From positions 1 through 35,153 of the IMG/VR virus record IMGVR_UViG_3300042090_001017: a stretch of DNA of 35,153 nucleotides; one strand, given 5' to 3'. This DNA comes from a virus. The translations under genes were made by a program, and so were the position numbers. Shown piece after piece: positions 5,956 to 31,406 of the stretch (position 1 is the first letter of the stretch; the number at the start of each line of letters is the position of its first letter). Under the pieces are notes generated by a model. That model did not search any database. It was not told the origin of the DNA and saw only the letters and a program-made list of their open reading frames with translations.

Positions 5956-5956
5956 C

Positions 5957-11415: not shown

Positions 11416-11433
11416 AAATTGTCCTTGGAATTT

Positions 11434-11541
11434 ACCGCAGAGACGCAGAGACGCGGAGAACGAACCCTATTACCTCTGCCCCCTCTGCGCTCTCTTTTCT
11501 TTGCATTTCGTTTTTCTCTGTGTCTCTGTGTCTCTGCGGTG
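11434..11541. repeat. Palindromic dispersed repeat between tube and chaperone genes
   Basis: The largest gap inside the operon (11416-11545) holds a repeat with inverted arms. The left arm is 11434-11460 (ACCGCAGAGACGCAGAGACG...) and the right arm 11508-11541 is its near inverse complement (...GTGTCTCTGCGGTG). The arms differ at a few positions and could fold into a long stem. Between them is a 21-bp core (11474-11494) identical to 7465-7485. Such CACCGCAGAGRCGCAGAG repeats are known to me as dispersed elements in many unrelated bacterial chromosomes. It is probably a small non-autonomous or REP-like element that entered the phage. It could affect transcription into the tape measure genes. 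Confidence 0.75.
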
Positions 11542-11545
11542 AGAT

Positions 11546-12793
11546 TTACACTAACCCGTTTTCGTGGAAGATCCCGATCTGCCTCCCCGCCGTCCTGGTC
11601 ACATCGCTCTGCCCCGTGAACTTCACCTTATACGTGCTGGTCTTGTTTCGCTGCGCGGTCCACGAAATCCCGTCGGCCGCGTTCACTCGATACAAACACC
11701 CCACCACCACGTCCGTCGTCACCGTCCGCCGTGGCGCAATCGCCGCCAGGCAGATCGTCGGCGGCTGGTTCGTCCCACCGAACGTGCACTGCGCGTAGTT
11801 GCCCGCCGAGAGCGTATAGTTCCCCACTCCCAGGGCCGTGGCCAGGTTTGTCATCGAACTCTGCAGTAGCTCCACTTCGAAGCTCGCTTCCAGGCTCTCC
11901 ACATACGCGTCCACCGGCCCGTCGAATTGGTCTGCCTTGATCAGCCCGATCTTCGGCGCCACGCTAAACGTCAGGGCGCCCGCCGTCATGCCCAAATGCA
12001 CGGAGTTCGCGTGCACCGTCGAACTGGGCGTCAGCGTGGCCGCGTCCAGCGTCACTTGCTGCACCGCGTCCGTCGGCGCCGGCGACACGACCCAGAAGTC
12101 CACCGGCCCCTGGTAGATCTGCGCCGCGTCGAACGCCTTCGCCGTCGGCGTTCCGCCCGACGCGTTCACCAGCGTCTGGTAGACAACCCCGATGTTCTGC
12201 CCCAGCGTCCTCGTCGGGTCGCTCAATCCCTGAAACTGTGCCTTGTAGCTCGCCGCCTTCGCGCGCCCCAGCGCCAGCGCAAATCCACTCATCGAGACAC
12301 CGATGTACAGCACGCTCACCACGTATTGCTGCGCGTTCTGCCGCGACGCCGAAATCACCGCCAGGCAGGTCTTCGGCACCGTGAACGTCCCGCCCCACGT
12401 CACCTGCTCGTATGTCGTCCCCGACGACGGGTTGGCATTTGTGCCCGTGGTATACGTCCCGACGCCCAGCATCCGCTGCAGCTTCTGCGATTCCACCTGC
12501 GCCAGGTCCGCCTCGATCTTCGCGTCCAGTTCAGCCAGGTACGAATCGATCGGCGCCTCGAACTGATCGGTCTGAATGTTCGCGATCTTCGGCTTTACGC
12601 TCGTCGTCACCGCCGACGCGATCGCTCCCAGGTGCACCGACCCCGGATGCGTCGTCGCGTCCGGCGATCCGTCCGACGCCAGCACCAGCCGCACCGCCGA
12701 GTCCGTCGGCGCCGCCGTCACCGGTATCGCCCACAAATCGCCCGGTCCCTGCACAATCTGGGAAACGCTGTAGTTCTTGCTCGTCCCCGCCAT
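11546..12793 (-). CDS. Tail tube protein with tandemly duplicated domain (415 aa)
   Basis: A 415-residue protein made of two copies of one domain of about 200 residues (about 12-206 and 222-412). Matching landmarks are QIVQGPGDLWAIPV / QIYQGPVDFWVVSP, PGSVHLGAIASA / ANSVHLGMTAGA, QTDQFEAPIDSYLAELDAKI / KADQFDGPVDAYVESLEASF, RMLGVGTYT / ALGVGNYT, and QGLSDPTRTLGQNIGVVYQ / TGQSDVTRTAGRQIGIFH. It is placed just upstream of the tail chaperone, where the major tail tube gene lies. Phage T5 tube protein pb6 is also a fused double domain that forms trimers in place of hexamers; the same design is likely here. Sheath protein is the main alternative, but no separate tube gene or contractile baseplate genes are seen. 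Confidence 0.75.
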   Translation of the reverse strand: MAGTSKNYSVSQIVQGPGDLWAIPVTAAPTDSAVRLVLASDGSPDATTHPGSVHLGAIASAVTTSVKPKIANIQTDQFEAPIDSYLAELDAKIEADLAQVESQKLQRMLGVGTYTTGTNANPSSGTTYEQVTWGGTFTVPKTCLAVISASRQNAQQYVVSVLYIGVSMSGFALALGRAKAASYKAQFQGLSDPTRTLGQNIGVVYQTLVNASGGTPTAKAFDAAQIYQGPVDFWVVSPAPTDAVQQVTLDAATLTPSSTVHANSVHLGMTAGALTFSVAPKIGLIKADQFDGPVDAYVESLEASFEVELLQSSMTNLATALGVGNYTLSAGNYAQCTFGGTNQPPTICLAAIAPRRTVTTDVVVGCLYRVNAADGISWTAQRNKTSTYKVKFTGQSDVTRTAGRQIGIFHENGLV

Positions 12794-14360: not shown

Positions 14361-14903
14361 CTATTGCAACTCCCCCGTCAGCGCCTCGATCTTCGCCACG
14401 TACGCCACCGTCTCGCCCGCGCGCTTCCCAGTGACCCGCGCGAGCACCGCCGCCACGCTCTGCCACACCATCTTCCCGGCCAACTCGACCGCGCGCGCGA
14501 TGTTGCCGGGGCCGGCGTTGTACGCCGCCAGCGCCAGGTCCCTCCGGTCCGCCGGCGCCGGCGCCGCAAACCGGTCTTCCTCCATCCGGTCGTACATGGC
14601 CGCGCCCTGGATCGCCGATTCCGGATCCAGCGGATTCACGCCCAGCCCCTTCGCCGTGGCCGGCATAAACTGCATAATCCCCACCGCGCCCGCACTCGAC
14701 ACCTGGTTTTCTTCGCACCCGCTCTCCGCGAGCGCCTGCGCCTCCAGGAGGTGCCAGCTTTCCCAGGGCAGGTAAAAGCTTGTCCACCGCTCGAAAGCCC
14801 CGCTGTAGACAGCCGGACAGCTCGGGCTGGCCGCCTGGCCGGTGTTAGCGGATAGTGCTAAGCACAGCCAGCACAACCAGGCCATAGAGAATCGCGATCG
14901 CAT
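14361..14903 (-). CDS. Lytic transglycosylase (SLT domain) with signal peptide, likely endolysin
   Basis: Cuts the glycan strands of peptidoglycan. Residues 1-25 form a Sec-type signal (MRSRFSMAWLCWLCLALSAN then TGQA). The SLT (lysozyme-like) domain spans about 45-175: catalytic Glu60 in ALAESG, GIMQ at 75-78, AYNAGPGN at 127-134, and a helix AYVAKIEALTG. At 180 residues it is a single-domain enzyme. The start overlaps the preceding membrane gene by 59 bp; AAAGGA lies upstream of this ATG. It may be the endolysin, exported by Sec like other signal-arrest or secreted endolysins, next to holin-like genes. It may instead be a virion-associated enzyme; the neighbours favour lysis. Confidence 0.9.
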   Translation of the reverse strand: MRSRFSMAWLCWLCLALSANTGQAASPSCPAVYSGAFERWTSFYLPWESWHLLEAQALAESGCEENQVSSAGAVGIMQFMPATAKGLGVNPLDPESAIQGAAMYDRMEEDRFAAPAPADRRDLALAAYNAGPGNIARAVELAGKMVWQSVAAVLARVTGKRAGETVAYVAKIEALTGELQ

Positions 14904-15054: not shown

Positions 15055-15435
15055 CTACTTCCCCTCCTCTGCCGTCCGCGCAGGCACGGCCTTGTTCGTG
15101 AAGTACCCGCACAGCCCAATGGTCGCCGCGGCCGTAAAGTTCCCCACGTACGCCTGCGCCGCCGCCGCCAGCACTCCCAGCAGTGTGGTATGTCCGTCGT
15201 GGTTTTCCTTGGTCGCCAGGTACCCGATTCCCCACACCGCGATGCCGGATGCCACCATGGCGATTTGCTGCGGATCTCCCGCCAGCAGCTTCGCCCAATC
15301 CAGATCCTTGATTGCCAGCAGCACACCCGCGATCGCGCCCACCACGGTGGTTTGCGTATTCTTGTCCGTGGCCAGCGATCGCACCAGGTCCTTCACCACC
15401 GCCGCCGCAACCCTCAGCTTCAACGCGTCAAGCAT
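15055..15435 (-). CDS. Holin-like membrane protein
   Basis: A 126-residue protein with a basic N-terminal helix (LKLRVAAAVVKDLVRSL), then hydrophobic segments TTVVGAIAGVLLAI (29-42), MVASGIAVWGIGYLA (60-74) and TLLGVLAAAAQAYVG through TIGLCGYF (84-112). The order and size are typical of three-helix phage holins, which form the pores that trigger lysis. It lies just upstream of the small membrane protein and transglycosylase. It overlaps the preceding gene by 16 bp. Family membership is inferred from topology and position. Confidence 0.65.
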   Translation of the reverse strand: MLDALKLRVAAAVVKDLVRSLATDKNTQTTVVGAIAGVLLAIKDLDWAKLLAGDPQQIAMVASGIAVWGIGYLATKENHDGHTTLLGVLAAAAQAYVGNFTAAATIGLCGYFTNKAVPARTAEEGK

Positions 15436-15669: not shown

Positions 15670-16215
15670 TTAAAACGTCTTCCGGAATTCCACCCCGTAC
15701 ACCGGCTTGACCTCCGTTGCGGTGATCGCTGTGTATAGAAACTTCAGCACCACAGGCAAATGCATCTTGCCCTTCGAAAGCGCGTACCCGGCGTCGTAGC
15801 TCACCGCCACTCCCCCCGCGAACATCGCCGCGGTCACCGTGCCGCTCGTAGTCGTCGATTGCACCGCGCCGATTGCGCCCTGCCCGATGAAATCGAAATT
15901 ACCGCTGTGCGCCAGGTGGTACTCCAGCGTTTCGGTCACCGTGGCGTCGGTGGGCGCCGTCGCGCTCGGCCCCACGCCGCTGCTGATATCGGTGTTTAGA
16001 AACGCGTTCGAGCACTGGCCGGTCTTTACGCCGAACCCCGTGCTCACCGACGGCGACTTGCCATAGTAATCGTAGTAAGCGCCCCCCGACGCAAAATAGC
16101 TGAACGGAGGGGTGCTTCCCGCCGCGCAGGTAGTCGTCGTCTGCGCCCCCACCGTCGCCGCCAGCATCGCCAGCATCGTCACTATCCATCCAAACTGCCG
16201 TAGTAAATTCTTCAC
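15670..16215 (-). CDS. Exported beta-rich protein, possible small outer-membrane barrel
   Basis: Start chosen at the GTG at 16215, 7 bases after GAGGAG; a TTG five codons upstream overlaps the preceding stop. Residues 1-25 (KNLLRQFGWIVTMLAMLA then ATVGAQ) form a signal peptide. The remaining 155 residues alternate polar and hydrophobic residues, rich in Gly, Ser, Thr and Tyr (GGAYYDYYGK; SVSTGFGVKTG; GVAVSYDAGYAL; MHLPVVLKFLYTAITAT), and end with a terminal Phe (VYGVEFRKTF), as outer-membrane barrels often do. It sits among capsid and lysis genes. It may alter the host surface (receptor masking) or be a spanin substitute; both are inference. Confidence 0.7.
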   Translation of the reverse strand: MKNLLRQFGWIVTMLAMLAATVGAQTTTTCAAGSTPPFSYFASGGAYYDYYGKSPSVSTGFGVKTGQCSNAFLNTDISSGVGPSATAPTDATVTETLEYHLAHSGNFDFIGQGAIGAVQSTTTSGTVTAAMFAGGVAVSYDAGYALSKGKMHLPVVLKFLYTAITATEVKPVYGVEFRKTF

Positions 16216-16226
16216 GTCGTCTCTCC

Positions 16227-16955
16227 TCAAAACACTTTCTCTGTCCGGAACAGCGGCCGGTCTCCGGTCGCTGCCGCCAGTTGCGGCGTCGGCGCCACCG
16301 TCGCCGCCGATGGATCGAAGAACTTGTCGTAATCGCCGTCGCGCAGCATCGCCCTCTGCTCCTGGTATGCCGTCCTCAGGCTCTTACTGACGCCCCACTC
16401 GCCCGTACCCGAAAACTGCGCGCCCACGGCCGCCGCCAAACGCGCCGCGGCTCCCAGCCGGTTGATCATTTCGGCCACATCCGCGGGATCCGGATCCCCC
16501 GCCGACGCCGGCTGCTGCCAGGTCGATGGGTCCAGGCTCAATCCGCGCCGCATCATCTCGGCCGAAATCTCCTGCGCCACGCTGCGGATCCATCGCTGGA
16601 TCTGATCGTCGGTGATCGTTCCGCCGCGTTTGAATCCCGGCACCTCGCCGCACACCGCATCCACACTCGTCCACGATTGCAGCGTCGTGTCGGTGAACTG
16701 CGCAGTGAACATCACCACGCCGCTGGTCGATTGGTCCGACCCCAGCACGAACACGGCGACCTGCATCGTCGTCCCATCCGGCCCCGCCAGGTCTGCCGGT
16801 ATAGCGGCCGTCAACGTAGTACTGTTAACCAGCGTCGTCGGCACCAGCGTCGGACAACCCACCTGGGAGCCGGCGTCGAAGCCGGCCCCCGTCAGGGTAA
16901 TCACCGTCCCGGGGGAACCGGAGGTCGGTGCAATCGATGTCAGCGATACGCTCAT
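16227..16955 (-). CDS. Head-tail connector protein with N-terminal IPT/TIG domain
   Basis: A 242-residue protein. Residues 1-85 form an Ig-like IPT/TIG domain: SLTSIAPTSGSPGTVITLTG is the classic start (P-xSG-xx-G-T-x-x-L-T-G) followed by GFDAGSQV and a late VAVFVLGSDQST. Residues about 112-215 (TDDQIQRWIRSVAQEISAEM, then ADVAEMINRLGAAARLAAAV and GVSKSLRTAYQEQRAMLRDG) look like the helical head-tail connector (gp6/DUF1320-like) family. Placed directly after the major capsid gene, as connectors are. The TIG part may decorate the virion neck and bind carbohydrate. Such a fusion is unusual to me. Confidence 0.75.
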   Translation of the reverse strand: MSVSLTSIAPTSGSPGTVITLTGAGFDAGSQVGCPTLVPTTLVNSTTLTAAIPADLAGPDGTTMQVAVFVLGSDQSTSGVVMFTAQFTDTTLQSWTSVDAVCGEVPGFKRGGTITDDQIQRWIRSVAQEISAEMMRRGLSLDPSTWQQPASAGDPDPADVAEMINRLGAAARLAAAVGAQFSGTGEWGVSKSLRTAYQEQRAMLRDGDYDKFFDPSAATVAPTPQLAAATGDRPLFRTEKVF

Positions 16956-19617: not shown

Positions 19618-20009
19618 GCCATCACCGTGATGAACAGATTGCCGCTGGCCGAGTCCTGGATCGCCGCGATCAGCCAGCCGCTCGTGATCGCGAAATACTG
19701 CACCGTGTTCGCCGGCAGATAGCAGCAGGTGCCGTTGGCGTTCGCTGTTGGGCTGGTGCCGAATGCCAGGTGGCAGTTCTGCGTCGCCACCACACGCACG
19801 ATCGCACCCGCGATCGCGCCCGACTGCGCCGATGTCGCCGTGAACGCCAGCTTCTGGCTGGTGCCCGGCGTCAGCGCATCGTCCAGAACGTGCAACTGGT
19901 GCACGCCGCCAATATTGGTCGTCTTCAGCACTCCGCGCGTTCCCGCCAGGTCCGTCGCGTGCCAGTCGCCCGCAATCAAATTATTCGCTACGTTAGTCGT
20001 TATCGGCAC
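19614..20009 (-). CDS. Hypothetical protein between portal and protease genes
   Basis: A 131-residue, beta-rich protein (TKTTNIGG-like strands; QKLAFTATSAQSGAIAGAIV; QNCHLAFGTSPTANANGTCC). I place the start at the GTG at 20009 because a strong AAGGAGG lies 5 bases upstream; a longer frame starting at ATG 20042 lies inside the portal gene. It overlaps the portal gene end by 17 bp. The family is not recognised. Compact, Gly/Ala/Thr-rich and without charge clusters, it may be a second decoration or spike protein on the capsid. Confidence 0.6.
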   Translation of the reverse strand: MPITTNVANNLIAGDWHATDLAGTRGVLKTTNIGGVHQLHVLDDALTPGTSQKLAFTATSAQSGAIAGAIVRVVATQNCHLAFGTSPTANANGTCCYLPANTVQYFAITSGWLIAAIQDSASGNLFITVMA

Positions 20010-22344
20010 TGCTTCCTCCTTCGTCGCTGAACACGTACACAATCACGCACCGGCACTTGTCGCCGCCGTCGCAATCCGGATTCGGCGTGTCCGGCAGATC
20101 GTCCGGCGTGTCCGCCGTCTTCCCGTCGGCGTCGGCGCACTCGCCGCAGGTATTGATGTCGAGCAGCGCCGAGTAATAGCAGCTCCCGATCTCGTCTTTA
20201 AACTGCTCGTACCCCGCGTCGCGCCCCTCGGCGAAGGCTTCGTTCGCACCCTCGCCGGCCACCCCGTCGATCCACTTATCGCTCTGCCCGTCTAGGTCGC
20301 TCTCGATTCCCTGAATCACCTCGCCCTTCGTGGCGTCCCCCGTGTTCCGCATCCGGTTCGCCGCCACGTTCGCCGCCCGCGCCGTCAGGTTGTTCTCGAA
20401 CTTGCTCACTACCGCGTCGGCAAATAGCCCCACCTGGTCGCGCTTCTCGGCCGCCACCACGGCTTCGCGTATCTGCGCCGCGTCCGCCGGCTTCCGCCCC
20501 GCGAGCTGCCGCGCGCGCTCTTCGGCCACCTGCCGCTGTCCGAAGCCGGCGAGCCCGCGCAGAATCTCCTCCACTTCCGCGATCAGCTTTTCGTCCGCGG
20601 CTGCCGACACGCGGTGCAGGTTCCGCACCGGCGTATTCACCAGCTTGTTGACGATCTCCGCCTGCACCCGCCCGCGCGCCTTGCGCAGCGCCGCCGCCAC
20701 CTCGTCGCGCCCCTTGTCCAGCGCCGACACGATCTCCGCGGCCGCCAGCCATTGCTCCGGCCCTCTTGGCGGACGCCGCAAATTCAATTCGCTCGCGGCC
20801 ACGGCCTTGCCGCGCTTCCCGGCCGCGCCGCCTCCGTCCCACGGGCCGGCCGGCCGAACGTCCTTCGCGTCTCCCTGTCCAGCCTGCTCGCCCGCATTCG
20901 CGTCCGCGCCCCCTCCCGCGCTTTCCGGCTTCTGGCCCGGTTGCTGCCCGGGGAGATTTACCTGCCGCTTCGCCCGCTCCCGGATAATCGTCGCTGAGTC
21001 CGCCTCCGGAGCGCCCATCAGCTTTCGTATCCACGCCTCCAGCTCCGGCGTCGGCGTAACCACATTGCCCTGGCCGAGTTGCCCCAGCGCCTGCGCGATC
21101 GCGTCGAACTTTAGCGCCATCACGCTCTGTGGAATAAGCTGCGGATACCTTCCCGGCTTGATGCCGTCGAAGTTGAAATCCACCAGCCGCTTTACCGTCG
21201 TCTGCGAGATGCGCCGGCCAATCAAATCCGCCGTCGCCTGTAGGCCCATGAAGAAGAAATCCGACATTGTCTCACCCAGCGAACGGTTGCCGGAGCTGTG
21301 CCCCGAAGAGCCCATCATCATGAACTGCGCCAGGCCCACTACGGTGATCATTGTGCCGTGATGCTGGATGGCATCCTTCGGATCCCGCACCGTTCCCGTC
21401 ACACCCTCCAGCGCGAACTTCCATTCGGGCGGCAGCAATAGCCCGGTGCGCTCGTTGGCCGTCAGCGCGGTGAGCCACTCGAACGCCGTCGCAATATCTT
21501 CCTTTTTCGCGCTGGGGCCCATCGTAATCACCGGGACGCCCAGCCCGTTGCGCTCGCAGGCCACCGCCTCGATCTTGTAGAGGTTGTTCTTGATGAACCA
21601 GTGCTGGTACATTTCGCGCAGCAGCGCCCGGCCCGTGAAGTTCGCACCCTCCTGGCGAAAGACGAACAGCGTGCTCTTGTCGAGAGGCACGTCCGTCCGG
21701 ATGTATTGCCCTGCGCGGTATCCGAGCTGCTCAATCGTCTCCAGTTCGTCCGTCCCGGGTTTGCACAGCCACCGGTACCACGTCAGCGGCAGCCGCGCCG
21801 CCAGCTTCTTCAGCCGCACGCGGTTCTGATCCACGTAGTAGACGTCCTCATGCATCGACGCGCCGAAATCGAACATCAGCAGCGCGTTTTCCAGCACCGC
21901 GTCAAAATCAATCTCGCCGTCGAACATTTCCTGCTCGATAAAATCCGTCGCTTCCTGCTCCGTCGAGTTGGCGTCTTCCGGCGGCTGTACCATCCACTCG
22001 CCGCCGCGGATCGGCAGCTTCGACGCCCACAGCGTGGCCGCTACCTGTGCATCCGACCGCCGCATGCGCTCGTATACCATGTACGCCGTCGGCCAGCTCA
22101 GGTCGGCATTGTATTCGCCTAGCTCGCGCAGGAATCCGGAGAAGATCGGTGTGCCCGTGGCGCCGATCTCGCGCATGTCCGCGGCCGTCGCCGGCACGCC
22201 CTTCTGTCCGCCCCCGGGTGCGACATTCCACGGCTGGGAAACCTGCCCGATTTCCGTCCCCGCCGGCACTGCCGGTTGCGGCGGTCCCGCCTGCCAGTCA
22301 GATGGCGGTTGCGAGGTGAGTCCCAAACTGATCAGTTTCGCCAT
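19993..22344 (-). CDS. Portal protein fused to a minor head (Mu F / SPP1 gp7-like) domain
   Basis: A 783-residue protein. Residues about 60-450 are portal-like (Mu gp29 / DUF935-related): APVIRG-like clip region, GRALLREMYQHWFIKNNLYK, LGETMSDFFFMGLQATADLI and LVDFNFDGIKPGRYPQL. A low-complexity Gly/Gln/Ala linker spans about 465-515. Residues about 520-783 resemble the Mu F / SPP1 gp7 minor head protein: CYYSALLDINTCGECADADG near the end, followed by PDCDGGDKCRC, a Cys/His metal-binding pattern. In most Mu-like phages these are two genes. The portal forms the DNA gate of the head; the F part promotes head assembly. The start overlaps the terminase stop (TAATG). Confidence 0.85.
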   Translation of the reverse strand: MAKLISLGLTSQPPSDWQAGPPQPAVPAGTEIGQVSQPWNVAPGGGQKGVPATAADMREIGATGTPIFSGFLRELGEYNADLSWPTAYMVYERMRRSDAQVAATLWASKLPIRGGEWMVQPPEDANSTEQEATDFIEQEMFDGEIDFDAVLENALLMFDFGASMHEDVYYVDQNRVRLKKLAARLPLTWYRWLCKPGTDELETIEQLGYRAGQYIRTDVPLDKSTLFVFRQEGANFTGRALLREMYQHWFIKNNLYKIEAVACERNGLGVPVITMGPSAKKEDIATAFEWLTALTANERTGLLLPPEWKFALEGVTGTVRDPKDAIQHHGTMITVVGLAQFMMMGSSGHSSGNRSLGETMSDFFFMGLQATADLIGRRISQTTVKRLVDFNFDGIKPGRYPQLIPQSVMALKFDAIAQALGQLGQGNVVTPTPELEAWIRKLMGAPEADSATIIRERAKRQVNLPGQQPGQKPESAGGGADANAGEQAGQGDAKDVRPAGPWDGGGAAGKRGKAVAASELNLRRPPRGPEQWLAAAEIVSALDKGRDEVAAALRKARGRVQAEIVNKLVNTPVRNLHRVSAAADEKLIAEVEEILRGLAGFGQRQVAEERARQLAGRKPADAAQIREAVVAAEKRDQVGLFADAVVSKFENNLTARAANVAANRMRNTGDATKGEVIQGIESDLDGQSDKWIDGVAGEGANEAFAEGRDAGYEQFKDEIGSCYYSALLDINTCGECADADGKTADTPDDLPDTPNPDCDGGDKCRCVIVYVFSDEGGSSADND

Positions 22345-23738
22345 TAGAAGTCACGCTCCATTAACCCCGCCGACACCGGCCGCCCCACCAGGCCGCAATC
22401 CTTCGCCGGCACATACACCCGCCCCGGCCCTTCCGCCGCCGACACCATCAGCGCCAGCGCCCAGAATTCATCCGCGTGTCCCTGGTCCGTCCGCGTCGCG
22501 TCGAACCGGATGATCCCCGTCGGCCCCACATACCTCTTGATCGCCTGGCACGCTCTCCGCAGCTTCGGCGATTCCGGCAGCCGCAGCGTCCGCTCTTCGA
22601 AGCGCTTCTTCAGCGTCACGGCCATGCGCTCTTTCACGGGGACGGTCACAATTTTTCCTTCGGTAGTTTCGCCACCGCTCTCGACGCGCGCTCCAAACTC
22701 CACCGGTTCCACGCACGGGAACTCCTCATGCAATTCCTCGGCGAGCTGCGCGCCCAGCCCCGTCGCATCCATCGCGAACCGGCCGCCGCCCTCGCTCACC
22801 GCCGCCGCTACTTCCCTCGCGACTTTCTTCTGGTCCGCGAACCGCATGCGCGCCATTTCGATCATTCCGCGCACCACCACCAGGTCCGCCATCGGTTCGC
22901 CCACCACAATCACCGACAGGTCGCGCTTCCTCGCCACGTCGAACCCCGCGCACAGCCCCGGCCGCGATTTCCCGTCCCACACCGCCGACGCTTCGTCCGA
23001 CTCGCACGCCAGCACCATCTCCAGCGGAATATAGTTCTCCGCTCCCGACACCGGCACGTTGCAGTAGTCCTGCAGCCAGATCTCGTCGTCGCCGATGGCC
23101 TTCTTCTGCGCCTCGATATCTACCGGCATGCCCTGCTGTTTCGCCATGTAGATATCCACCCAGTGCCCGCTCCACCCCTCGCGCTTCACCGGCTGCCGTT
23201 TCGGCCGCACGCCATCGTGCAGGCCCAGCATTTTCGCCAGCTCGTAAAACTTGTTCTCCGCGCCCTTGAACGTCGAAGCCACGCGCACCTTATAGCCGCG
23301 CGTCGCGCGCGTCATCATGGCCGCCCAGATCGACCGCGAATCGCGATGCAGCGCGAACTCGTCCAAAAACACATCTCCCGAATACCCGCGCGCCGTATCC
23401 GGATTCGCCGGCAGCGCGATAATCCGGCCGCCGCCCGGGAAGATCGCCCGATGCTCGATAATCTCGGTCGAGCCGAAAAAGCCGTCTTCGAACTTGGCGT
23501 CCCAGGCCCGCGTGTGCATCTTGATCTTTTCCATCAGCTCCACGCTCTGCCGTTCGCTCGCCGAGAGCATGATCCCCAGGTCCGGTTTCTTCAGCCGGTC
23601 CATCGCCATGTCGAGCGATGTTCCGAACGATTTCCCCGACTGCACCGACGCCACCACCCACTTGAACCGGCTCTCGTCGGCGATCCACGCCTTCTGCCAG
23701 TCGAGCAGCGGAACAATCGGCTTGGGGCTCTCGTTCAC
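22344..23738 (-). CDS. Terminase large subunit (Mu gp28-like)
   Basis: The DNA packaging motor. Start GTG at 23738 overlaps the previous stop (GTGA), giving 464 residues. Walker A-like ASVQSGKS at residues 30-37, Walker B DVFLDE at 122-127, motif III VASTF at 153-157. The nuclease domain has GFDVAR (Asp267), AMDATG (Asp324) and HADEFW (Asp423), the expected acidic triad. It packages the head; in Mu-like phages packaging starts near one end and fills the head with host DNA at the other. The neighbours gp27-like and portal match Mu order. A longer N-terminal frame beginning at 23927 exists but is an Arg-rich shadow. Confidence 0.93.
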   Translation of the reverse strand: MNESPKPIVPLLDWQKAWIADESRFKWVVASVQSGKSFGTSLDMAMDRLKKPDLGIMLSASERQSVELMEKIKMHTRAWDAKFEDGFFGSTEIIEHRAIFPGGGRIIALPANPDTARGYSGDVFLDEFALHRDSRSIWAAMMTRATRGYKVRVASTFKGAENKFYELAKMLGLHDGVRPKRQPVKREGWSGHWVDIYMAKQQGMPVDIEAQKKAIGDDEIWLQDYCNVPVSGAENYIPLEMVLACESDEASAVWDGKSRPGLCAGFDVARKRDLSVIVVGEPMADLVVVRGMIEMARMRFADQKKVAREVAAAVSEGGGRFAMDATGLGAQLAEELHEEFPCVEPVEFGARVESGGETTEGKIVTVPVKERMAVTLKKRFEERTLRLPESPKLRRACQAIKRYVGPTGIIRFDATRTDQGHADEFWALALMVSAAEGPGRVYVPAKDCGLVGRPVSAGLMERDF

Positions 23739-23965
23739 CGCGCGATCCTCAGCAGCTCCGCCGCCTTCACCGGCAGCTTCGCTCCGCAATTGCACCAGGC
23801 CGTCTCGCTCACGCGTTCCGTGCGCGCGACGATGCGCAACCCGCCGCCGATCCGCATCCACGTCTGCGTCTTCACCACCGCCGTCGCAAACCCGTTTTCC
23901 ACGGCATCGCACCCGCACTGCGGGCACTTCACCAGCCTATTCTTGGTGGCGCTAGGCGATGCCAT
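23735..23965 (-). CDS. Small zinc-ribbon protein between terminase subunit genes
   Basis: A 76-residue protein with CPQCGC near residue 14-19 and CNCG near 58-61, a zinc ribbon. The ATG lies inside the end of the gp27-like gene (14 bp overlap) and its stop overlaps the terminase GTG. Basic C-terminus KAAELLRIAR. Could be a DNA-binding accessory to packaging. Not a standard member of the Mu gp27-gp28 module, so probably an insertion between them. Confidence 0.65.
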   Translation of the reverse strand: MASPSATKNRLVKCPQCGCDAVENGFATAVVKTQTWMRIGGGLRIVARTERVSETAWCNCGAKLPVKAAELLRIAR

Positions 23966-24491
23966 AAATGCTCCGGATCTCCTCGATCCTTTGTTCCGGC
24001 GTCATCTTTTCGGCCGGCTTCTCCATCACTTCCCTCACGCGCCGATCCCGTTCTTCCATCAGCGCCATCTTCCTCTCCTGGACGGCCGCGTTGCGCTCCC
24101 GAATTTCCAGCTCACGCTTCTTCAGCCTGGTCTTCTCGCCCTCCAGCGCCAGCCCCTGCAGCTCGATCGGGTCGGCCCCCGTCAGCGAGTCCGGGTGCTC
24201 CATCAGGTGGCTCTGCGCCAGCGCCATGATCTGCTCGCTCGCATCCATTCCCCCCGCTTTCATCGCCGCAACCAGGTCTTCCATCCGCTCGCGCCCGATC
24301 CGCCGCCGCTCCACTTCCGCGCGCCATTCCGCCGCGCGCCTGGCGATCGTCCGCTCCGCCACGGTCTCGCCGGTTGCGTCCTTGATGGCCTGCGCAATCC
24401 ACGCGCTCGCCTTCTGCGCCGCAAAGCCCTGCACCATCACGCGCCGCCCCTCCGGCGAAAGCGCATCCGTGACTTTGGCCAGCCGCGCCAC
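23952..24491 (-). CDS. Mu gp27-like protein (DUF3486), terminase small subunit
   Basis: A 179-residue, helical, charged protein. N-terminal HTH-like region MARLAKVTDALSPEGRRVMV, then TGETVAERTIARRAAEWRAE, typical of DUF3486 proteins, which precede the gp28-like large terminase. The C-terminus has EKPAEKMTPEQRIEEIRSIY. It likely recognises DNA for packaging as the small terminase. Start is a GTG at 24491, immediately after the previous stop. Length and neighbours agree with Mu gp27. Confidence 0.85.
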   Translation of the reverse strand: MARLAKVTDALSPEGRRVMVQGFAAQKASAWIAQAIKDATGETVAERTIARRAAEWRAEVERRRIGRERMEDLVAAMKAGGMDASEQIMALAQSHLMEHPDSLTGADPIELQGLALEGEKTRLKKRELEIRERNAAVQERKMALMEERDRRVREVMEKPAEKMTPEQRIEEIRSIYGIA

Positions 24492-24492
24492 G

Positions 24493-24834
24493 CTAGAACC
24501 TCACCCCCGGATTCTCCGGCTCCGTGCCGTCGATCAGCCGCAGTCCCTTCGGCAGCAGTTTGCAGAACACAATAGCGTCCGGATCTCCCGCGCCCAGCCG
24601 GTCGCGCCGATACCCCGGCGTCTCGCCCGCCCGCACGATGCGCACGTAGCCCTCATCGGAGAGGTACACCAGGTGGAAGCCCAGGTCTTCCATCGACATC
24701 GGGTAGCCCAGCAGGTCGAGCGCGCCCGCCAGATCGGCCGTCCGCGTCAAGCGCCCGGAGTACTCCTCCATCAGCGCGTGCAGAATCATTCCCCGCTCGC
24801 GCGCGTGCCGTACATTATCGAGCGTCTGCGCCAT
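24493..24834 (-). CDS. Mu gp26-like winged-helix protein (VpaChn25_0724-type)
   Basis: A 113-residue protein with a winged-helix layout: ERGMILHALMEEYSGRLT, LAGALDLLGYPMSMEDLGFH, LVYLSDEGYVRIVRAGE and a final KLLPKGLRLIDGTEPENPG. The arrangement and the ending (LTxxGLxxxxG-x-P) match the gp26-type proteins found between DUF2730- and DUF3486-type genes in Mu-like phages. It may bind DNA or another packaging factor. Overlaps the previous gene by 20 bp. Confidence 0.75.
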   Translation of the reverse strand: MAQTLDNVRHARERGMILHALMEEYSGRLTRTADLAGALDLLGYPMSMEDLGFHLVYLSDEGYVRIVRAGETPGYRRDRLGAGDPDAIVFCKLLPKGLRLIDGTEPENPGVRF

Positions 24835-25117
24835 TGCGTGCCTCCACCAGCTTCTCCAGCATTTCTTTCATGTCGCGGATCGATCGCGATTGCACCCGCA
24901 CCGCCAGCAGCACTTCGTGCTGGTCCGTCTGCCCCGCCTGCACCGTCTGCGCCAGTTGCGTCACGGCCGTCGCCTGTGTCACCATCGCCACAGTCTGATC
25001 CCGCGACGCCTTCAGAAACTCCCCCAGCCACTTATCCGCCAGCTTCCACAGCAGCCAGCACAGCAGCGCTGTCGAGCCAAACTCCTGAATCGCTTTCCAC
25101 ACCAGGTCGAAGCTCAT
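24815..25117 (-). CDS. Mu gp25-like (DUF2730-type) membrane/coiled-coil protein
   Basis: A 100-residue protein with an N-terminal transmembrane segment (STALLCWLLWKLADKWLG, residues 14-31) followed by a helical tail with heptad pattern (VTQLAQTVQAGQTDQHEVLL; SIRDMKEMLEKLVEA). Same size, topology and position as Mu gp25. The ATG at 25117 follows the stop of the LamG gene by a few bases. Function in Mu-like phages is not established. Confidence 0.7.
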   Translation of the reverse strand: MSFDLVWKAIQEFGSTALLCWLLWKLADKWLGEFLKASRDQTVAMVTQATAVTQLAQTVQAGQTDQHEVLLAVRVQSRSIRDMKEMLEKLVEARNGADAR

Positions 25118-25122
25118 AATCC

Positions 25123-26259
25123 TCAATTCACTACGACGATGCGCCTCTTGGCGCTTGCGCCCACGGTAGTCAGACTCCCGACAGTGAGGAAAGACGAAGG
25201 CGCCGATTGGTTGTTGTACTCCGTGGCAATCCAATTCGCGGAGCGCTGCGTAGTCGATACCCTGTACTCGTCCGCGCTGAACGCAAGCAGTGCGCCGCCG
25301 GCGCCGCTGCATGCGTTGCCGAGCGAGATGTCCGCCCCTGTATAAGATGCGTAGCTGCCGGTGTTCGCATTGGTGCCTACCTGCGCGCCATTGATGTACG
25401 CAAATTCTCCCGATGCGCCGACCGAGCCAACCACATATGTCCAAGTCGCTTGGGAGAGGGCCGCGCTGGGCGTGGAGGTGATTTGGGACGAGCCGTTGTA
25501 GGCGTAGAAGTGCAGTTTGTTCGCCGCGTCCAAATACAGGATTTTGTCGCAGGCGCCGCCCACATACCCCTGCTGAAAGCCGCCAATGGTGGACGCCGCT
25601 CCCGGCAAGGTCGGGACGTACATCCAAAGGCTCACCGTGCCCGGCGAAGTGTTCACCGTCTTCGCTCCCATCACCACGCTGTTCGTGGTGGCGGGGAGAT
25701 TGGCGCCGCCGTCGATCTGGCCCGCTGCCGCGGTTACGACGCCTCCGTTTGTGCCGGTATCGGCATTCGCGCTGGAATCCGCCAGAGACAGCGTGGACCC
25801 GTTCGGCAGGTGCCAGATCGAGACATAGTTACTGTCCCACGCCGCCCCCGTCGCGCCACCCTGAAATGCGCTGATTGCGGAGTTCCCGACGCAAAGGTAG
25901 AAGCTACCGCTCGCCGTCAACGAGGGCACCAGGACCCAAGCCTCCATAGCGCCGGTCGAACCAACATAGGTTGGCATCTCCCAGTTCATCAGCGTCGGCG
26001 AGGAGCAAGCGGTCGAGGAAAACACGATGTCGTATCCATAGAGGCTGGTGGCATGGCCCCCGCTGCCGGTCACCGCCAGGCCGCTGACCGTTGGGCATCC
26101 GTTGCCGTCTCCCAGCGTCATGTTGGCGCAGACCAGCACCGTGAAGTTGCTCTGCGACGCCGGAATCTGGCTGGAGTTACCCAGAGTGATGACGCCCTGG
26201 TAGCCGTACCCGGCGAAGGCAGGCAGGGCAACCGCAAGCGAGAGGAAGAGTTTTCTCAT
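25123..26259 (-). CDS. Exported DUF2341/LamG-like lectin protein (378 aa)
   Basis: Start chosen at the ATG at 26259 (MRKLFLSLAVALPAFAGYGY), giving a signal peptide of about 16 residues. Residues about 20-145 read like DUF2341 (GYDIVFSSTAC; NWEMPTYVGS; EAWVLVPSL; FYLCVGN). YVSIWHLPNGSTLSLADSSA leads into a concanavalin A-like LamG jelly roll at about 165-345, with GTVSLWMYVP, LSQATWTYVVG, EFAYINGAQVGT and the closing SADEYRVSTTQRSANWIATE. Such proteins bind carbohydrate at the cell surface or outside. It is the last of five signal-peptide genes in a row and lies directly before the packaging genes. Confidence 0.85.
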   Translation of the reverse strand: MRKLFLSLAVALPAFAGYGYQGVITLGNSSQIPASQSNFTVLVCANMTLGDGNGCPTVSGLAVTGSGGHATSLYGYDIVFSSTACSSPTLMNWEMPTYVGSTGAMEAWVLVPSLTASGSFYLCVGNSAISAFQGGATGAAWDSNYVSIWHLPNGSTLSLADSSANADTGTNGGVVTAAAGQIDGGANLPATTNSVVMGAKTVNTSPGTVSLWMYVPTLPGAASTIGGFQQGYVGGACDKILYLDAANKLHFYAYNGSSQITSTPSAALSQATWTYVVGSVGASGEFAYINGAQVGTNANTGSYASYTGADISLGNACSGAGGALLAFSADEYRVSTTQRSANWIATEYNNQSAPSSFLTVGSLTTVGASAKRRIVVVN

Positions 26260-26261
26260 TG

Positions 26262-29105
26262 TCAGTTCACCGTGTAGTCCACACTGCAATTCAGCGCCGT
26301 GGGCGTTCCGCTGATCGATGTGATCGTGAGCACCACCGGATTATGGGCTGCCACCGCGCAATTGGAAGTCGCGCCGCACTGGCTCGATCCGTTAGCGAAG
26401 GTCGATGTGTTCGCGCCACCCGCGACCGCCGTGAGGTCCGAACCCAGCAGGTGCGCCCCGCTGTCGGTCCCAATCGCGCCTTCTGTGCGCTTGTCGAGGT
26501 TCATCACCACGTTGGTGGAGCCCTGAACGGCACAGTATACGCGTGTCAGCGCGATCGCTGTGGCTGGATTGATTACCAGGATCAGGCCGGAATCCGACGC
26601 CGCCGGCGCCAGGTCCGTCACCGCGGCCGTGCGGGTTTGCAAACCGCCGACTGTCAGATTTTCATTCGCGCTCAGCCCCGATGCGTCCAATGTCGCCAGG
26701 GCCGACGTGCTCGCACCGAAAGAGAGCTTGCCCGTGGTGGACATCGCGATTTCCGGTCCACTGGACGGCGCGACGTTGTTGGCCGCATATTGGTTGACCC
26801 AACCCACTGCGGGATTGCTGCCCGCAGCGGGAACCACCATCTGGTGCCATGTGCCGTCCTGGGCGGCCGAGCCCGTCCACCACGACGCCGCCAACGCCAG
26901 GTCGGCAGAGGAGTAGTTGGCGGAAGACGTCGCCGTGCTCTGCGGGAGGTAGGTCTCCGTTGGCAGGCCGCCGGAGTACCCGTCGTACTTCAAGGGCGCG
27001 ACGGTCGTGGAGTTCACGTCCACCTGGGTGTACAAACCGCCGTTGTAGATCGAGGGCAGGCTGTTGTTGCGCGTGGCAACCATCGTCACGCCCTGGTAGG
27101 CACTGGAGGAATTCTCCATCCGGAGCGCACCGCCCTGGACGCCGTTGCCATTGTTCCCGGTGAGGATCCACTCTCCGTTGTACTTTGCGAGGCCGATGTT
27201 GCTGCAGCCAACAAGGATGCAGGTCCCTGAGTTTGTCTGTCCTAGATAGAGATCGTCCGTGCTCCGTTCGTAATTGTCGGGGCCGATGGCAAAGTACCCC
27301 GCCGTCGAGCTGGGAGCAAGGTATCCCTGGCCGTCCGTGCCGGCCCAAGTGATCGGCGCCTGGCCGAGGCCCGTCCCGATGGCCATCGCGGCGGTCGTCG
27401 GGCTGCCGACATTCACGCCCGTCGCAACATTGGCCATTAAGACGCCGTTCGTGAAAGCCACTGTTTGGCCGCCCTGCAACGATTGCCCCGTCAGAGAGAT
27501 GCCCGCTTGCTGCGTGACGGAGCCGTTGTTCGACACTGTGACGGATGGGCGGTGCGCGCCGCCCGGACTGTATTCACCCCGCTGAATCCACAAGGATTGG
27601 GTGTCGGAGTACGGCGTGATCGCCAGTTCCACCAAGTCCCCATTCGTCCAGGTGAAGGTGTTGGTGTCCAACACCACGGTGGTGCCGCTGGAGTAAAGCA
27701 CCTGGGCGCATGGACTGATCTGGTAGGTGCCCGCGCCTGGGCCGTACCCGTGGTACACCGCGTCGCCTGTCACGCTCATCGAATAGATGTTGAGCGAGGT
27801 GCCGGAAGTGACAGACTGGATCTGGTACCAGGAGTGCAAAGGGCCGGTTGTGCCGGTGTTGTTGAACGGGACCCCTGTATAGGTGTCGGCCGCCAGGTAG
27901 ATGCAACCGGGGTTCATGGCGTCGCCGCCAACCATACCGTTCGCCCAGCTTGTTCCGCTGCCCGTGAAAGCGCTGGTGGTGGTGGAAATTGCACTCACCG
28001 TCCCCGTGGCGTAGGATCCTCTCGACAGGTCCACCAGCACGCGGTTTTGCCCGAACTGATACGTGCTGGCCACGCTGACGACCGCCGCCGGAGTCACCGT
28101 CGCGGCGCTCGCATAGTTTGCATTGAATACCCCAGTCAAGGTGCCGCTTCCCACGGCAGTGAGATTGACTGCGATTTCGTTGGGGTAGCCGGTTGGCGCC
28201 GATCTTCCGATAACCACCCAGTCGCCGGCGCTGCATCCGGTGGAGCTGGCCACCGTCACAGTCTGCGCCGTAATCGAGGCGGTCACAGCCTGCGTCAAGG
28301 TCGTATTGCACGATGTTCTCACCGCGCCAGAGGAAAGGGTCGTGAGGGTCAGGAAAGGTTGCTGCTGCTGCACCCACCGGGCAATGTAGCTGCCTTCGTC
28401 CCCGGCGATGGGGCCGCCGGCGTAGGTCAGGGTGGCTCCTTCGACAATGTTGTCGCTCATTCCATAGGTGGTCTCGGTTTGATTGGTAACCTGCTTCTGC
28501 CCCGATGCCCCGCCCGTGGTTGTGGAGTTCACCGCGATGAAGGTTTTTTTGGCGTTCGTTCCGCTGCCGTATAGCGCCTGTCCGTTGGCAATGTTCAACT
28601 GAAGATCGGCCAGGTTCTCGTCGCTGTAGTTGGGGTTCGTGCTGACGGAAGTGGTCGTCGATTGGACATTGATGGCATCAGCCCCATTCGCATTGCCTGT
28701 GGTGTTGGGGTTTGTGACGGACATCGTCAGGCCGGGAAGAAATAGGTTCGCTGTCGTAGAGCCCGAAGCAGGAATGGCCGTGCTCCCGATGAGGCCGCCC
28801 AGTAAGCCGGCGGCATTGTACTGGAGGGTCCCGGACGATCCGCCCGGTGTGCTGCCGCCGCTCGCCGTATGGCAGTTCCCATCTGCCCCGAGATATTGAG
28901 TCCCTGAGCAGGAGCTAAACAGCCCCACAACATTGCTGGCCGTCGCCGCCACCGGCTGGCTGCTGGAATTCGTGCCCAGCAGCGCGGCGCTCGCCGGCAC
29001 GGTGCCGCCGTTCACCGCATTTGCGCTCACCGACTGGTTCGCGACGCCGTTGATCGACTGCGCCCAACCCGCCAGCGGTAATGCCAGTAAGAGTAGTTTC
29101 CGCAT
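26262..29105 (-). CDS. Exported tail-fibre-like protein (947 aa)
   Basis: A 947-residue, Ser/Thr/Gly/Asn-rich beta protein. Residues 1-15 (MRKLLLLALPLAGWA) form a signal peptide. AGGAG overlapping the previous stop precedes the ATG. Residues about 16-90 contain INGVANQSVSANAVNGG and SCSGTQYLGADGNC, a repetitive head found in fibre-like proteins. The middle (300-700) is a long series of short strands. The last 90 residues (LTRVYCAVQGSTNVVMNLDK to CSVDYTVN) resemble capping domains. The combination of phage fibre style and a Sec signal is odd: virion fibres assemble in the cytoplasm. It could be displayed on the host surface or act as a decoy. No enzyme motif is seen. Confidence 0.75.
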   Translation of the reverse strand: MRKLLLLALPLAGWAQSINGVANQSVSANAVNGGTVPASAALLGTNSSSQPVAATASNVVGLFSSCSGTQYLGADGNCHTASGGSTPGGSSGTLQYNAAGLLGGLIGSTAIPASGSTTANLFLPGLTMSVTNPNTTGNANGADAINVQSTTTSVSTNPNYSDENLADLQLNIANGQALYGSGTNAKKTFIAVNSTTTGGASGQKQVTNQTETTYGMSDNIVEGATLTYAGGPIAGDEGSYIARWVQQQQPFLTLTTLSSGAVRTSCNTTLTQAVTASITAQTVTVASSTGCSAGDWVVIGRSAPTGYPNEIAVNLTAVGSGTLTGVFNANYASAATVTPAAVVSVASTYQFGQNRVLVDLSRGSYATGTVSAISTTTSAFTGSGTSWANGMVGGDAMNPGCIYLAADTYTGVPFNNTGTTGPLHSWYQIQSVTSGTSLNIYSMSVTGDAVYHGYGPGAGTYQISPCAQVLYSSGTTVVLDTNTFTWTNGDLVELAITPYSDTQSLWIQRGEYSPGGAHRPSVTVSNNGSVTQQAGISLTGQSLQGGQTVAFTNGVLMANVATGVNVGSPTTAAMAIGTGLGQAPITWAGTDGQGYLAPSSTAGYFAIGPDNYERSTDDLYLGQTNSGTCILVGCSNIGLAKYNGEWILTGNNGNGVQGGALRMENSSSAYQGVTMVATRNNSLPSIYNGGLYTQVDVNSTTVAPLKYDGYSGGLPTETYLPQSTATSSANYSSADLALAASWWTGSAAQDGTWHQMVVPAAGSNPAVGWVNQYAANNVAPSSGPEIAMSTTGKLSFGASTSALATLDASGLSANENLTVGGLQTRTAAVTDLAPAASDSGLILVINPATAIALTRVYCAVQGSTNVVMNLDKRTEGAIGTDSGAHLLGSDLTAVAGGANTSTFANGSSQCGATSNCAVAAHNPVVLTITSISGTPTALNCSVDYTVN

Positions 29106-29113
29106 TTCAGCTC

Positions 29114-30316
29114 CTATTGATTAACGATTCCGGGAGTCGATGCGTACAACGTCGCGCCATCCGGTGAGGTGAATTCCTGCTGGCTGCATTTGTTTACGGT
29201 GGTCCCTACAGTGATGCCGCCATGCACGGAGGCCGGCCAAGTGAAGGTCCCGCCGGTTGAGCCCTGGCAAATGATGAACCTCCACCAGCCGCCCGCGGTG
29301 ATGTTGCTCACGCTCGCGGTCGCGTTGGTGTTCAAAGCAGCGATGTATTGGACGTTGCCGAGCGAGAGATCGAAAGCGGGGCTGGCACCGGACGCCACCG
29401 TGTTAACGGCGTGAGTCTGTGTCCGGGTGAACGTGTTCAGGCCGAGGATTGCCAGGCTGGCGGATGCGGGTATCGATGTGCCGTTGACGCTCGTACTATT
29501 GGCGAGCGCCGCCGGCAGGTAGGTCGCCGGAATTGTGCCGGTAAGCGCGCCCGCCGCCGCCAGGTTCAGCGCGCCGAATGACGGGTTGGCGCTGGAACCT
29601 CCCGACACTAAGGCGAGCCCACTGGTGGACGATGGGGTGATGCCGCCCACCGTGGTGCTCGTCGCGAACACGCCTATCTGGTATTGCGCTGGAGTGCCGC
29701 TATTGCTCAGATTGCCGCCGCCCGATGGCGTGGCCCACGTCCCGTCTCCGCGCCAGAAGGTCGAGCTGGAGGCCCCAGTCCCGCTGCCCAGATTCGCCAC
29801 GGGAAGGTTACCGGTTACGCCCGTGGAAAGCGGCAGTCCGGTGCCATAGGTCAGCGTGATGCTCGACGGCGTCCCGGCCGCGCCGCCACTGGCCAGCAGC
29901 GTTCCCGAAGTCGGAAACGTCACCGCGGTATTGGCGGTAAGCGTGGCGCCAAACGTAAACGCGCCGGTCATCGTAAAGCTGCCCCCAAGCGAAACCGCCT
30001 TGCCGCCGATGCTGCCCACCGTGGTTGCGCACGCGCCGGCCGAGCTGGTCGCGTCGCCGGTCAGCGCGGGCAACTGCGCGCACGTCGCGGAGCCAGACAA
30101 ATTATTGAAAGTCGGCTGCGCCAGGTGGGGCACGCCGGAGGTGTCGATGTATTGCACCCAGTTGTTGCTCGACAGCGCGATTGATTCGATCCCGCCCAGC
30201 GCGCTTGCGGTCGGGTTGGGCAGGATTACAACCTGGCTGCCTACCCCGTTGATGGTCATCGTCTGCTGCGCGGACAACGCCAGCGCAACCGCGAGGCCCA
30301 GCATCAGTCTCTTCAT
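29114..30316 (-). CDS. Exported tail-fibre-like protein (400 aa) with shared C-terminal domain
   Basis: Residues 1-16 ([16 protein letters not shown]) form a signal peptide. The middle has the tail-fibre signature [20 protein letters not shown] and [19 protein letters not shown] (residues about 155-200), found in many phage fibres as I recall. The last 90 residues ([16 protein letters not shown] ... [19 protein letters not shown]) match the end of the 261-residue protein encoded at 30621-31406 (PTFDFSLCTQQIITL ... [19 protein letters not shown]). The ATG overlaps the previous stop (ATGA). Role probably surface or adhesin; a phage fibre with a signal peptide is unexpected. Confidence 0.75.
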
Positions 30317-30624
30317 TGCTTTCCCTCTTTCTCGGCGGACGCGCCGCCCGCTTTCGTTTTCGGAACGCAGATCAGGTCTATGAGCCCCTGATCGTTGCGC
30401 ACGTATTGCAGCTCCGCGTCATTGGCGGCGCAGAACGCGGTAGCCTTGCGCGTTGCCTCTCCCTGCAATGCCATCGCGTGCTCGATCACCCACGCCTGCC
30501 GCCAATACTCGCTGGTGATGTCGGTCTGCACGGCAAAGCGCGGGCGGATCTCCGGCGCTGGCGACGCGGGTTTGTCTTGCCCCCACAGCCCGGCACTCAG
30601 CAACAGTAGAACCGCTCTCTTCAT
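30313..30624 (-). CDS. Small exported protein (103 aa)
   Basis: Starts at the ATG at 30624, overlapping the previous stop (ATGA). [16 protein letters not shown] is a signal peptide; the mature part is about 87 residues, with a Pro-rich start ([12 protein letters not shown]), a helix [20 protein letters not shown], two Cys in FCAAND and DLICVPK, and a basic tail. The two Cys could pair in the periplasm. Not a recognised family. It sits between two fibre-like exported genes and may be their chaperone or partner. Confidence 0.65.
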
Positions 30625-31406
30625 TGGTTGACCGCTCCTGGATTTAAGCCCAACAGCGTCGAGCCGTCGAGCGAAGTAAACGACTGCACGTTGCGCTTGC
30701 CGCTGAAGGAGCCGATGGTGAAGCCGCCCAACACGGCTCCCGTCCAGGTCACCGAGTAGGCCGGTGAGCCCTGAACGAAAGTGATGGTGCAACCGCCGGG
30801 TACCTGGCAATACGCAGCGTTGGCGATAACCGGTGTCACGCCGCCGGTCAATGTGATGATCTGCTGGGTGCAGAGCGAAAAGTCGAAAGTGGGTGTTGCG
30901 CTGAACGCGACCACCTGCAGGCATTTAGGCGTCCCCCCGCAGATCCCCGGCGCCCATGTCGCTCCCGTCCAGCACAGCGCCTGGCCAATTGTCGCGCTGT
31001 CCTGGCTGAGCTGCTGCGGATTGAAAGTAACTCCCACCGCCGGCGCGACACTTACTCTTACCGCCGCAAGTCCCAGCGCCGTTCCACTGGTAGGTATCAC
31101 CCAGTGATCCGTTCGCGGCGCCGCCCCGACTAACTGCCACGCCGCCGTGTAACTCGTGTTGCTCGGAACGCCGGTGTCGTTCGGCTCTAAGTTCACCGTG
31201 AAAGCGCCATTGATGACTTTTACAATCACCGGGTTAGTATCTACCCACGTTCCATCCGCCGCCAGAAATGCCGCGGTCGCCGTGATAGTGATTTTACCCG
31301 TCGCAAGCGTCTCCCCGTCGCCAGCCGTGATCTTAGTCTGCGACACCGTTGTGGTGGCCATCGCCGCCAGCGCCGAAGCTATCCACAGCAAGCCGAGTTT
31401 CTTCAC
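30621..31406 (-). CDS. Exported protein with N-terminal signal and shared C-terminal domain (261 aa)
   Basis: Start GTG at 31406 overlaps the previous stop (GTGA), giving KKLGLLWIASALAAMATTT, a signal peptide. Residues 25-115 include KITAGDGETLATGKITITAT and VKVINGAFTVNLEPNDTG, which resembles a domain that frames substitution or display proteins in acidobacterial genomes; then a Cys-bearing link (ALCWTGATWAPGICGGTP). The last 90 residues form the C-terminal domain shared with the 400-residue protein. First of the exported block. Function unknown; likely surface-exposed. Confidence 0.7.
   Translation of the reverse strand: MKKLGLLWIASALAAMATTTVSQTKITAGDGETLATGKITITATAAFLAADGTWVDTNPVIVKVINGAFTVNLEPNDTGVPSNTSYTAAWQLVGAAPRTDHWVIPTSGTALGLAAVRVSVAPAVGVTFNPQQLSQDSATIGQALCWTGATWAPGICGGTPKCLQVVAFSATPTFDFSLCTQQIITLTGGVTPVIANAAYCQVPGGCTITFVQGSPAYSVTWTGAVLGGFTIGSFSGKRNVQSFTSLDGSTLLGLNPGAVNQ

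Follow-up and report, generated by a model that had tools for sequence, protein, structure and literature searches.

Five tandem genes with predicted Sec signal peptides in a phage with Mu-type head genes: candidates for exported fibres that may meet the virion at lysis

We analysed a block of five tandem genes within a stretch of viral DNA of 35,153 nucleotides (IMG/VR virus record IMGVR_UViG_3300042090_001017, positions 1 to 35,153), hereafter called the window. The explanation that accounts best for this block, and to which we give an even chance, is that it encodes receptor-binding fibres that are exported by Sec, stabilised by disulfides and brought together with the virion at lysis. Export of the block proteins is likely, and we infer that the fibres attach to the virion. 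As far as sequences tell, the same arrangement is found in several unrelated phages. Fibres of tailed phages are usually made and assembled in the cytoplasm, without an export signal, which is the usual condition and not a strictly defining one. We know of no standard account of tailed-phage assembly that includes exported fibres attached at lysis, and we found neither a published description of signal-bearing exported phage fibres nor a precedent for a periplasmic fibre assembled onto a tail.

The block occupies positions 25123-31406 of the minus strand and consists of five co-oriented genes of 261, 103, 400, 947 and 378 aa, all of which were recovered as ORFs with the lengths given in the preliminary description. 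Gene 1 (P5, 30621..31406, 261 aa) has a GTG start and the Sec-type signal VKKLGLLWIASALAAMA; gene 2 (P4, 30313..30624) encodes a small, probably helical protein of 103 aa with a Sec signal; gene 3 (P3, 29114..30316) encodes a 400-aa fibre with a Sec signal and the fibre motif FWRGDGTWA; gene 4 (P2, 26262..29105) encodes a fibre-like protein of 947 aa, rich in Ser, Thr and Gly, with the Sec signal MRKLLLLALPLAGWA; gene 5 (P1, 25123..26259) encodes a 378-aa protein with the Sec signal MRKLFLSLAVALPAFA. The junctions between genes 1 and 2 and between genes 2 and 3 are 4-base ATGA overlaps, and the remaining ones are gaps of 2-8 bases; an alternative TTG start would extend gene 5 up to 26289, a longer form that is unnecessary.

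The gene map places the block, as previously described, between regulatory and early genes (beyond 31,500) and packaging genes (below 24,500). It runs in the direction of the late operon, the late genes of the window (Mu-type portal, Mu-like protease, head genes, tape measure and tail genes) being on the minus strand. The next gene downstream (24815..25117, minus strand) encodes a 100-aa protein with one N-terminal membrane segment, by position only a candidate lysis gene (holin or spanin-like). The packaging genes start, on the same strand, with a presumed small terminase-like gene (23952..24491), which precedes the gene of the terminase large subunit (22344..23927, likely start 23735); the Mu-type portal with its C-terminal MuF-like region (19993..22344, minus strand) was assigned by profile matches. 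The label Mu-like, formerly given to the whole phage, holds for the head genes, where Portal_Mu and Mu-like_Pro were matched, and its support is confined to these.

Third-position GC skew is about -0.1 in genes 3-5 versus about +0.3 elsewhere in the window, and AGA accounts for 22% of Arg in the block versus 3% in the other window genes. This synonymous codon usage of its own suggests that the cassette was acquired recently. No RNA family or tRNA was found across the window, no sigma-70-like promoter on the block strand and no terminator-like site at the block ends rose above chance, and a PADLOC search of the block proteins matched no described defence protein. A diversity-generating retroelement was considered and rejected, the direct repeats giving no convincing template/variable pair.

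Signal peptides were detected by a rule-based scan for n-, h- and c-regions and an A-X-A motif, not by SignalP; the rule misses some obvious cases, and L089, L090 and L004 6120 were assigned by eye. All five block proteins pass the type-I Sec rule, with a positive n-region, a hydrophobic h-region and an AXA-type c-region, at scores matched by 0.2-4.6% of shuffled N-termini per protein. A compositional artefact was rejected, as no internal segment of these proteins attains the signal score. Among the 38 genes called in the window, the only other clean signals are those of 15670-16230 and of the SLT transglycosylase at 14361-14903; the 1420-aa tail protein scored at the borderline, which was judged a false call. 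Because the base rate in the fetched loci is 27/830 non-fibre phage genes, five signals in succession would be expected at ~1e-6 (a naive count). Between gene 3 and its homologue in another contig (L003, described below), the mature parts are ~77% identical and residues 1-16 ~38%, and both N-termini are good signal peptides; genes 1 and 2 likewise keep their signals in the L003 homologues despite diverged signal sequence. That the signals appear to be evolutionarily kept in kind is the best support for their being real. Mis-called starts were also rejected: the signal-bearing starts form ATGA junctions or adjoin the preceding stop within a few bases, ribosome-binding-like sequence is mostly present and the starts are repeated in L003. 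The claim that all five genes start with Sec signal peptides was hence borne out by the scan, the shuffle control and the conservation in L003.

The five proteins contain neither a lipobox nor a C-terminal barrel or anchor signature; their C-termini (...NPGAVNQ, ...EKEGKQ, ...GIVNQ, ...DYTVN and ...IVVVN) have no aromatic barrel end, and window hydrophobicity along the mature parts peaks at borderline values for genes 1 and 4 (1.68 and 1.64), with the other three staying below. The window has two further signal-bearing genes. The one at 15670-16230 (minus strand) lies just after the major head protein region and encodes a 186-aa protein whose C-terminus, ...GVEFRKTF, has the final Phe typical of outer-membrane barrels; the head protein is likewise followed by small signal-bearing genes in L126 (16298-16774) and L123 (10923-11492), which are mutual homologues, and in the L009 phage (L133). 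The SLT transglycosylase gene (14361-14903, minus strand) belongs to the structural operon, with the gene of a membrane protein (15055-15435) close by, and possibly encodes an exported lytic enzyme.

Two or three of the five proteins had been described as looking like tail fibres. Mature parts are indeed fibre- or lectin-like, but both motifs quoted in support are found in the 400-aa protein alone, the 378-aa protein has a Laminin_G_3 lectin fold and the 103-aa protein is not fibre-like. The repeat stretches of gene 3 occur in many phage fibres, in hundreds of viral contigs, and this type of repeat comes without a signal in most of the 80 contigs examined. No fibre profile matched any block protein of the window, the fibre assignment coming from the sequence motifs of gene 3. 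Gene 1 combines an N-terminal beta domain, common to L120, L139 and L003, with a C-terminal domain common to gene 3. Gene 5 contains a Laminin_G_3/concanavalin-A-like domain (residues 191-345, Pfam E 1e-14) and weakly matches a virion structural PHROG; gene 4 matched no family, and no enzyme domain was found in the block. The product of gene 2 is possibly a periplasmic chaperone. The block as a whole is rich in Ala, Gly, Thr, Ser and Asn, with few charged residues. AlphaFold modelling of gene 1 from three sequences gave a pLDDT of 36, too low for use, and no match was obtained for genes 3 and 5 in a PDB sequence search or for genes 1, 4 and 5 among isolated phages. Scanning viral sequences with gene 1 or gene 2 alone, or with a profile of gene 2, returned only L003.

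The search for the block elsewhere was partly successful: homologues of genes 1-3 were found in L003 and of gene 1 in L120 and L139, these three being the closest relatives found, but two genome-contig scans with gene 3 were empty. L003 (IMG/VR contig 3300041955_000165) is a 9.2-kb fragment of a contractile-tail phage with baseplate hub and wedge genes. Directly after the wedge gene, genes 1, 2 and 3 have homologues in unchanged order, each with a signal. Gene 3 is 75% identical overall to its counterpart, with all four Cys kept, and gene 2 is 43% identical and again placed between the fibre genes. This module of three consecutive signal-bearing homologues differs from that of the window by its location in the baseplate operon and by an additional signal-bearing gene preceding it there. 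By terminase the nearest relative is L120 (51%). No comparable block precedes its terminase; it carries three signal-bearing genes in the head operon, between portal/MuF and protease, the first being a gene 1 homologue (31%, 1e-13) and the second encoding a protein that matches PHROG tail fibres (E 1e-6). In L139, which is otherwise unrelated to the window phage (no terminase match was detectable), a signal-bearing gene 1 homologue lies in the tail-tip operon, between the tape-measure/minor tail gene and that of a 1268-aa tail protein. No such fibre block precedes the terminase in four more distant terminase relatives (L122, L123, L126 and L127). As homologues of genes 1-3 are found in differing virion operons, the cassette therefore seems to move between phages and to land in virion operons, in the late direction.

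Whole-record gene lists were produced with a simple ORF caller. The fibre repeat gave access to a sample of 80 viral loci. About ten of these loci encode a fibre with a signal, often as tandem arrays: after the baseplate gene gpJ and its neighbour in a myovirus (L009), with a gpJ-type wedge (phrog_6) upstream, after a J-like protein in L080, and after internal virion proteins in three podovirus-like contigs (L004, L059 and L060). Signal-bearing relatives carry Collar (PF07484, together with a tail-fibre PHROG at 3e-28), Peptidase_S74 and pectate-lyase-like domains; downstream, L009 additionally carries a fibre-like gene without a signal. The strongest case is ppBdUSDA122-1, a Bradyrhizobium siphophage that is spontaneously released and whose siphovirions have been seen (PMC10127595). 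Two signal-bearing collar-type fibre genes (products WAX24263.1 and WAX24264.1), one of them annotated as tail fiber protein, follow its J-like gene, cleavage of the fibre signal being predicted at ...ALA|AEQSS, and no other fibre gene was found in this complete genome; likewise, no fibre-like gene besides the signal-bearing ones was found in the records G004 and G005.

The 482-aa fibre of ppBdUSDA122-1 aligns over most of its length with a signal-less tail-collar protein of Rhizobium phage RHph_TM16. In RHph_TM16 (EVB27_007) and P106B (gp38), the tail-collar/short tail fibre gene also stands directly after J, and its product is homologous to the signal-bearing Bradyrhizobium fibres along the N-terminal domain and the collar region. 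These fibres differ in having neither a signal peptide nor the Cys pair discussed below, and in being followed by a Tfa-like fibre-assembly gene, which is missing from ppBdUSDA122-1 and from the signal-bearing versions. The annotated tail genes of six isolated phages (Rhizobium, Sinorhizobium, Pseudomonas and EBPR) have no signals, so signal-bearing tail genes are not a general property. The window block is linked to the Bradyrhizobium case by shared architecture and fibre motifs of the sequences, not by direct homology or alignment. The initial premise that virion fibres carry no signal peptides does not hold, since signal-bearing fibre genes occupy the ordinary fibre locus in unrelated phages and share homology with signal-less tail-collar fibres over the greater part of their length. 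Because no fibre candidates other than these were found in ppBdUSDA122-1, G004 and G005, and because they are homologous to virion fibres, these proteins would become parts of the virion.

Several of these loci hold further features. The L009 record (L131-L133) shows one myovirus with two separate signal-bearing fibre blocks totalling six genes; spanin-like genes come directly after the first block, whose second gene encodes a small signal-bearing helical protein, like gene 2; L009 also encodes a pectate-lyase-like, tail-spike-type protein with a signal peptide (10788-12530). A tail-spike-type sequence with 26 Cys and a signal peptide is found in G005 (L137, reverse complement 3707-6262). In ppBdUSDA122-1 (L086), an acyltransferase gene (4167-5291) lies in the opposite direction directly after the signal-bearing fibre and is possibly a surface-modifying, receptor-altering gene of the lysogen.

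Cysteine content followed the signals. The mature products of genes 1 to 5 contain 6, 2, 4, 12 and 6 Cys, all even numbers. Among fibre-like proteins clustered by similarity, median Cys is 1.33% with a signal (14 clusters) versus 0.28% without (54 clusters; p 5e-6), and looser clustering gave 1.74% (10) versus 0.26% (32; p 2e-4). In an N-terminal domain shared by signal-bearing and signal-less fibres, a Cys pair is present in 14/15 signal-bearing copies and 0/16 signal-less ones, these copies being related and representing few evolutionary events; the sole signal-bearing exception, a 482-aa protein of L080, has neither Cys. A pair that tracks the signal in this way is what oxidative folding outside the cytoplasm would be expected to leave. 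An AlphaFold (AF2) model of this domain (pLDDT 78) retrieved, as named top matches among predicted viral structures, a tail fiber protein and a Rhizobium tail collar protein (E 6e-5 and 1e-4), and so the domain belongs to ordinary fibres; a fold search of the PDB gave no significant match. Agrobacterium phage Milano, a soil phage, similarly has Cys-rich, disulfide-stabilised virion parts, but its bonds are in neck, collar, sheath and capsid and no signal peptide is mentioned (PMC10491603). Since disulfides arise there without a reported signal, Cys richness alone is no proof of export.

In the explanation that we favour, the block would be expressed late and form an exchangeable cassette that encodes receptor-binding fibres and lectins with type-I Sec signals. 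The proteins would be exported to the periplasm and their signals cleaved, a step strongly supported by sequence, and disulfide bonds would form there, as the cysteine patterns suggest. Anchors being absent, the products may then constitute a soluble periplasmic pool, possibly aided by the gene 2 product, itself small and exported. Once holin and endolysin open the membrane, DNA-filled virions would meet this pool and the docking of the fibres would end assembly; the resulting virions would bear fibres that are oxidised and robust. That particles complete in all else can still take on fibres is established from the long tail fibres of T4 and the tailspike of P22. Against this explanation, the window block precedes the terminase genes and is not within the tail operon, and the ends of the window are incomplete, so that signal-less fibre genes may lie outside it.

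The main rival, which we consider rather unlikely, is an exported decoy or superinfection-exclusion system, fibre-derived and not part of the virion, that would occupy the receptor inside or outside the envelope; progeny would not re-adsorb to the dying cell or its debris, and competing phages would be shut out. Exported proteins encoded beside receptor-binding genes, namely T5 Llp (next to pb5) and the Cor proteins, do this (PMC9586334), and lambda Lom is encoded between tail spike and fibre genes (PMC12309495). The lectin fold of gene 5, the receptor-binding-type distal parts that are kept and the signal-less fibre-like gene that L009 retains also speak for a decoy. Llp, Cor and Lom resemble the block proteins in Sec export and gene location but are small lipoproteins or beta-barrels, not fibres; an Llp/Cor-type lipoprotein was rejected given the type-I signals, the lack of a lipobox and the sizes of 103-947 aa, and a Lom-type outer-membrane barrel given the lack of a C-terminal aromatic residue. 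A clear membrane anchor is missing as well. The decoy reading is further weakened by ppBdUSDA122-1, G004 and G005, where no other fibre gene was found for the virion, and by the retention of the N-terminal domain of ordinary fibres and of S74/collar assembly parts, for which a decoy has no need.

We regard as improbable that the proteins are adhesins of lysogenic conversion, expressed in the lysogen and secreted (e.g. by a type II system) for host binding of surfaces or polysaccharide. Lectin-fold and fibre repeats, Sec signals and a codon usage unlike that of the rest of the phage, as for acquired cargo, would fit such a role; the late-operon direction, the absence of a promoter or terminator above chance and the location of homologues within portal/protease, baseplate and tail-tip operons, which are not moron positions, oppose it. 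The proposal of an accessory block benefiting the lysogen, drawn from the signals, is consequently unsupported given the late direction and the homologues at virion-fibre loci; from the broader idea of a secreted or surface-displayed system, likely export is retained, a lysogen adhesin is unlikely and a decoy or exclusion role is the main rival. Equally improbable are soluble exported proteins that bind or degrade polysaccharide and free the progeny by stripping or loosening the cell surface during lysis: the pectate-lyase-like domain in L009, the K1-lyase-like C-terminus in L006, the gene 5 fold and the position of the block directly upstream of a putative lysis gene favour them, but the window block has no detected enzyme domain, and relatives elsewhere carry fibre/collar and virion-type chaperone domains. 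Hydrophobic N-termini unused as signals, with fibres assembled in the cytoplasm or a membrane-active tip, are very improbable: signal prediction was rule-based, but the pattern of K/R, hydrophobic stretch and AXA recurs in many unrelated sequences, diverged in sequence and kept in kind, and both the enrichment in Cys and the Cys pair go with the signal.

In textbook accounts, tailed phages complete their assembly in the cytoplasm. A missing signal peptide has served as an indicator that variable binding proteins come from phages (PMC6199706). Beyond the window, we tentatively propose, with somewhat less than even confidence, that many environmental tailed phages of Gram-negatives complete their virions outside the cytoplasm, adding Sec-exported, periplasm-oxidised fibres, and possibly small capsid-neighbour proteins, at lysis. 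Bradyrhizobium diazoefficiens USDA 122, which is culturable and spontaneously releases ppBdUSDA122-1, makes this idea directly testable. If whole phage groups do have Sec-exported fibres, this would alter the assembly pathway, the timing of fibre attachment and the part that host Sec, Dsb and periplasmic chaperones play in making phage, and genes of this kind annotated as bacterial secreted proteins would have to be relabelled.
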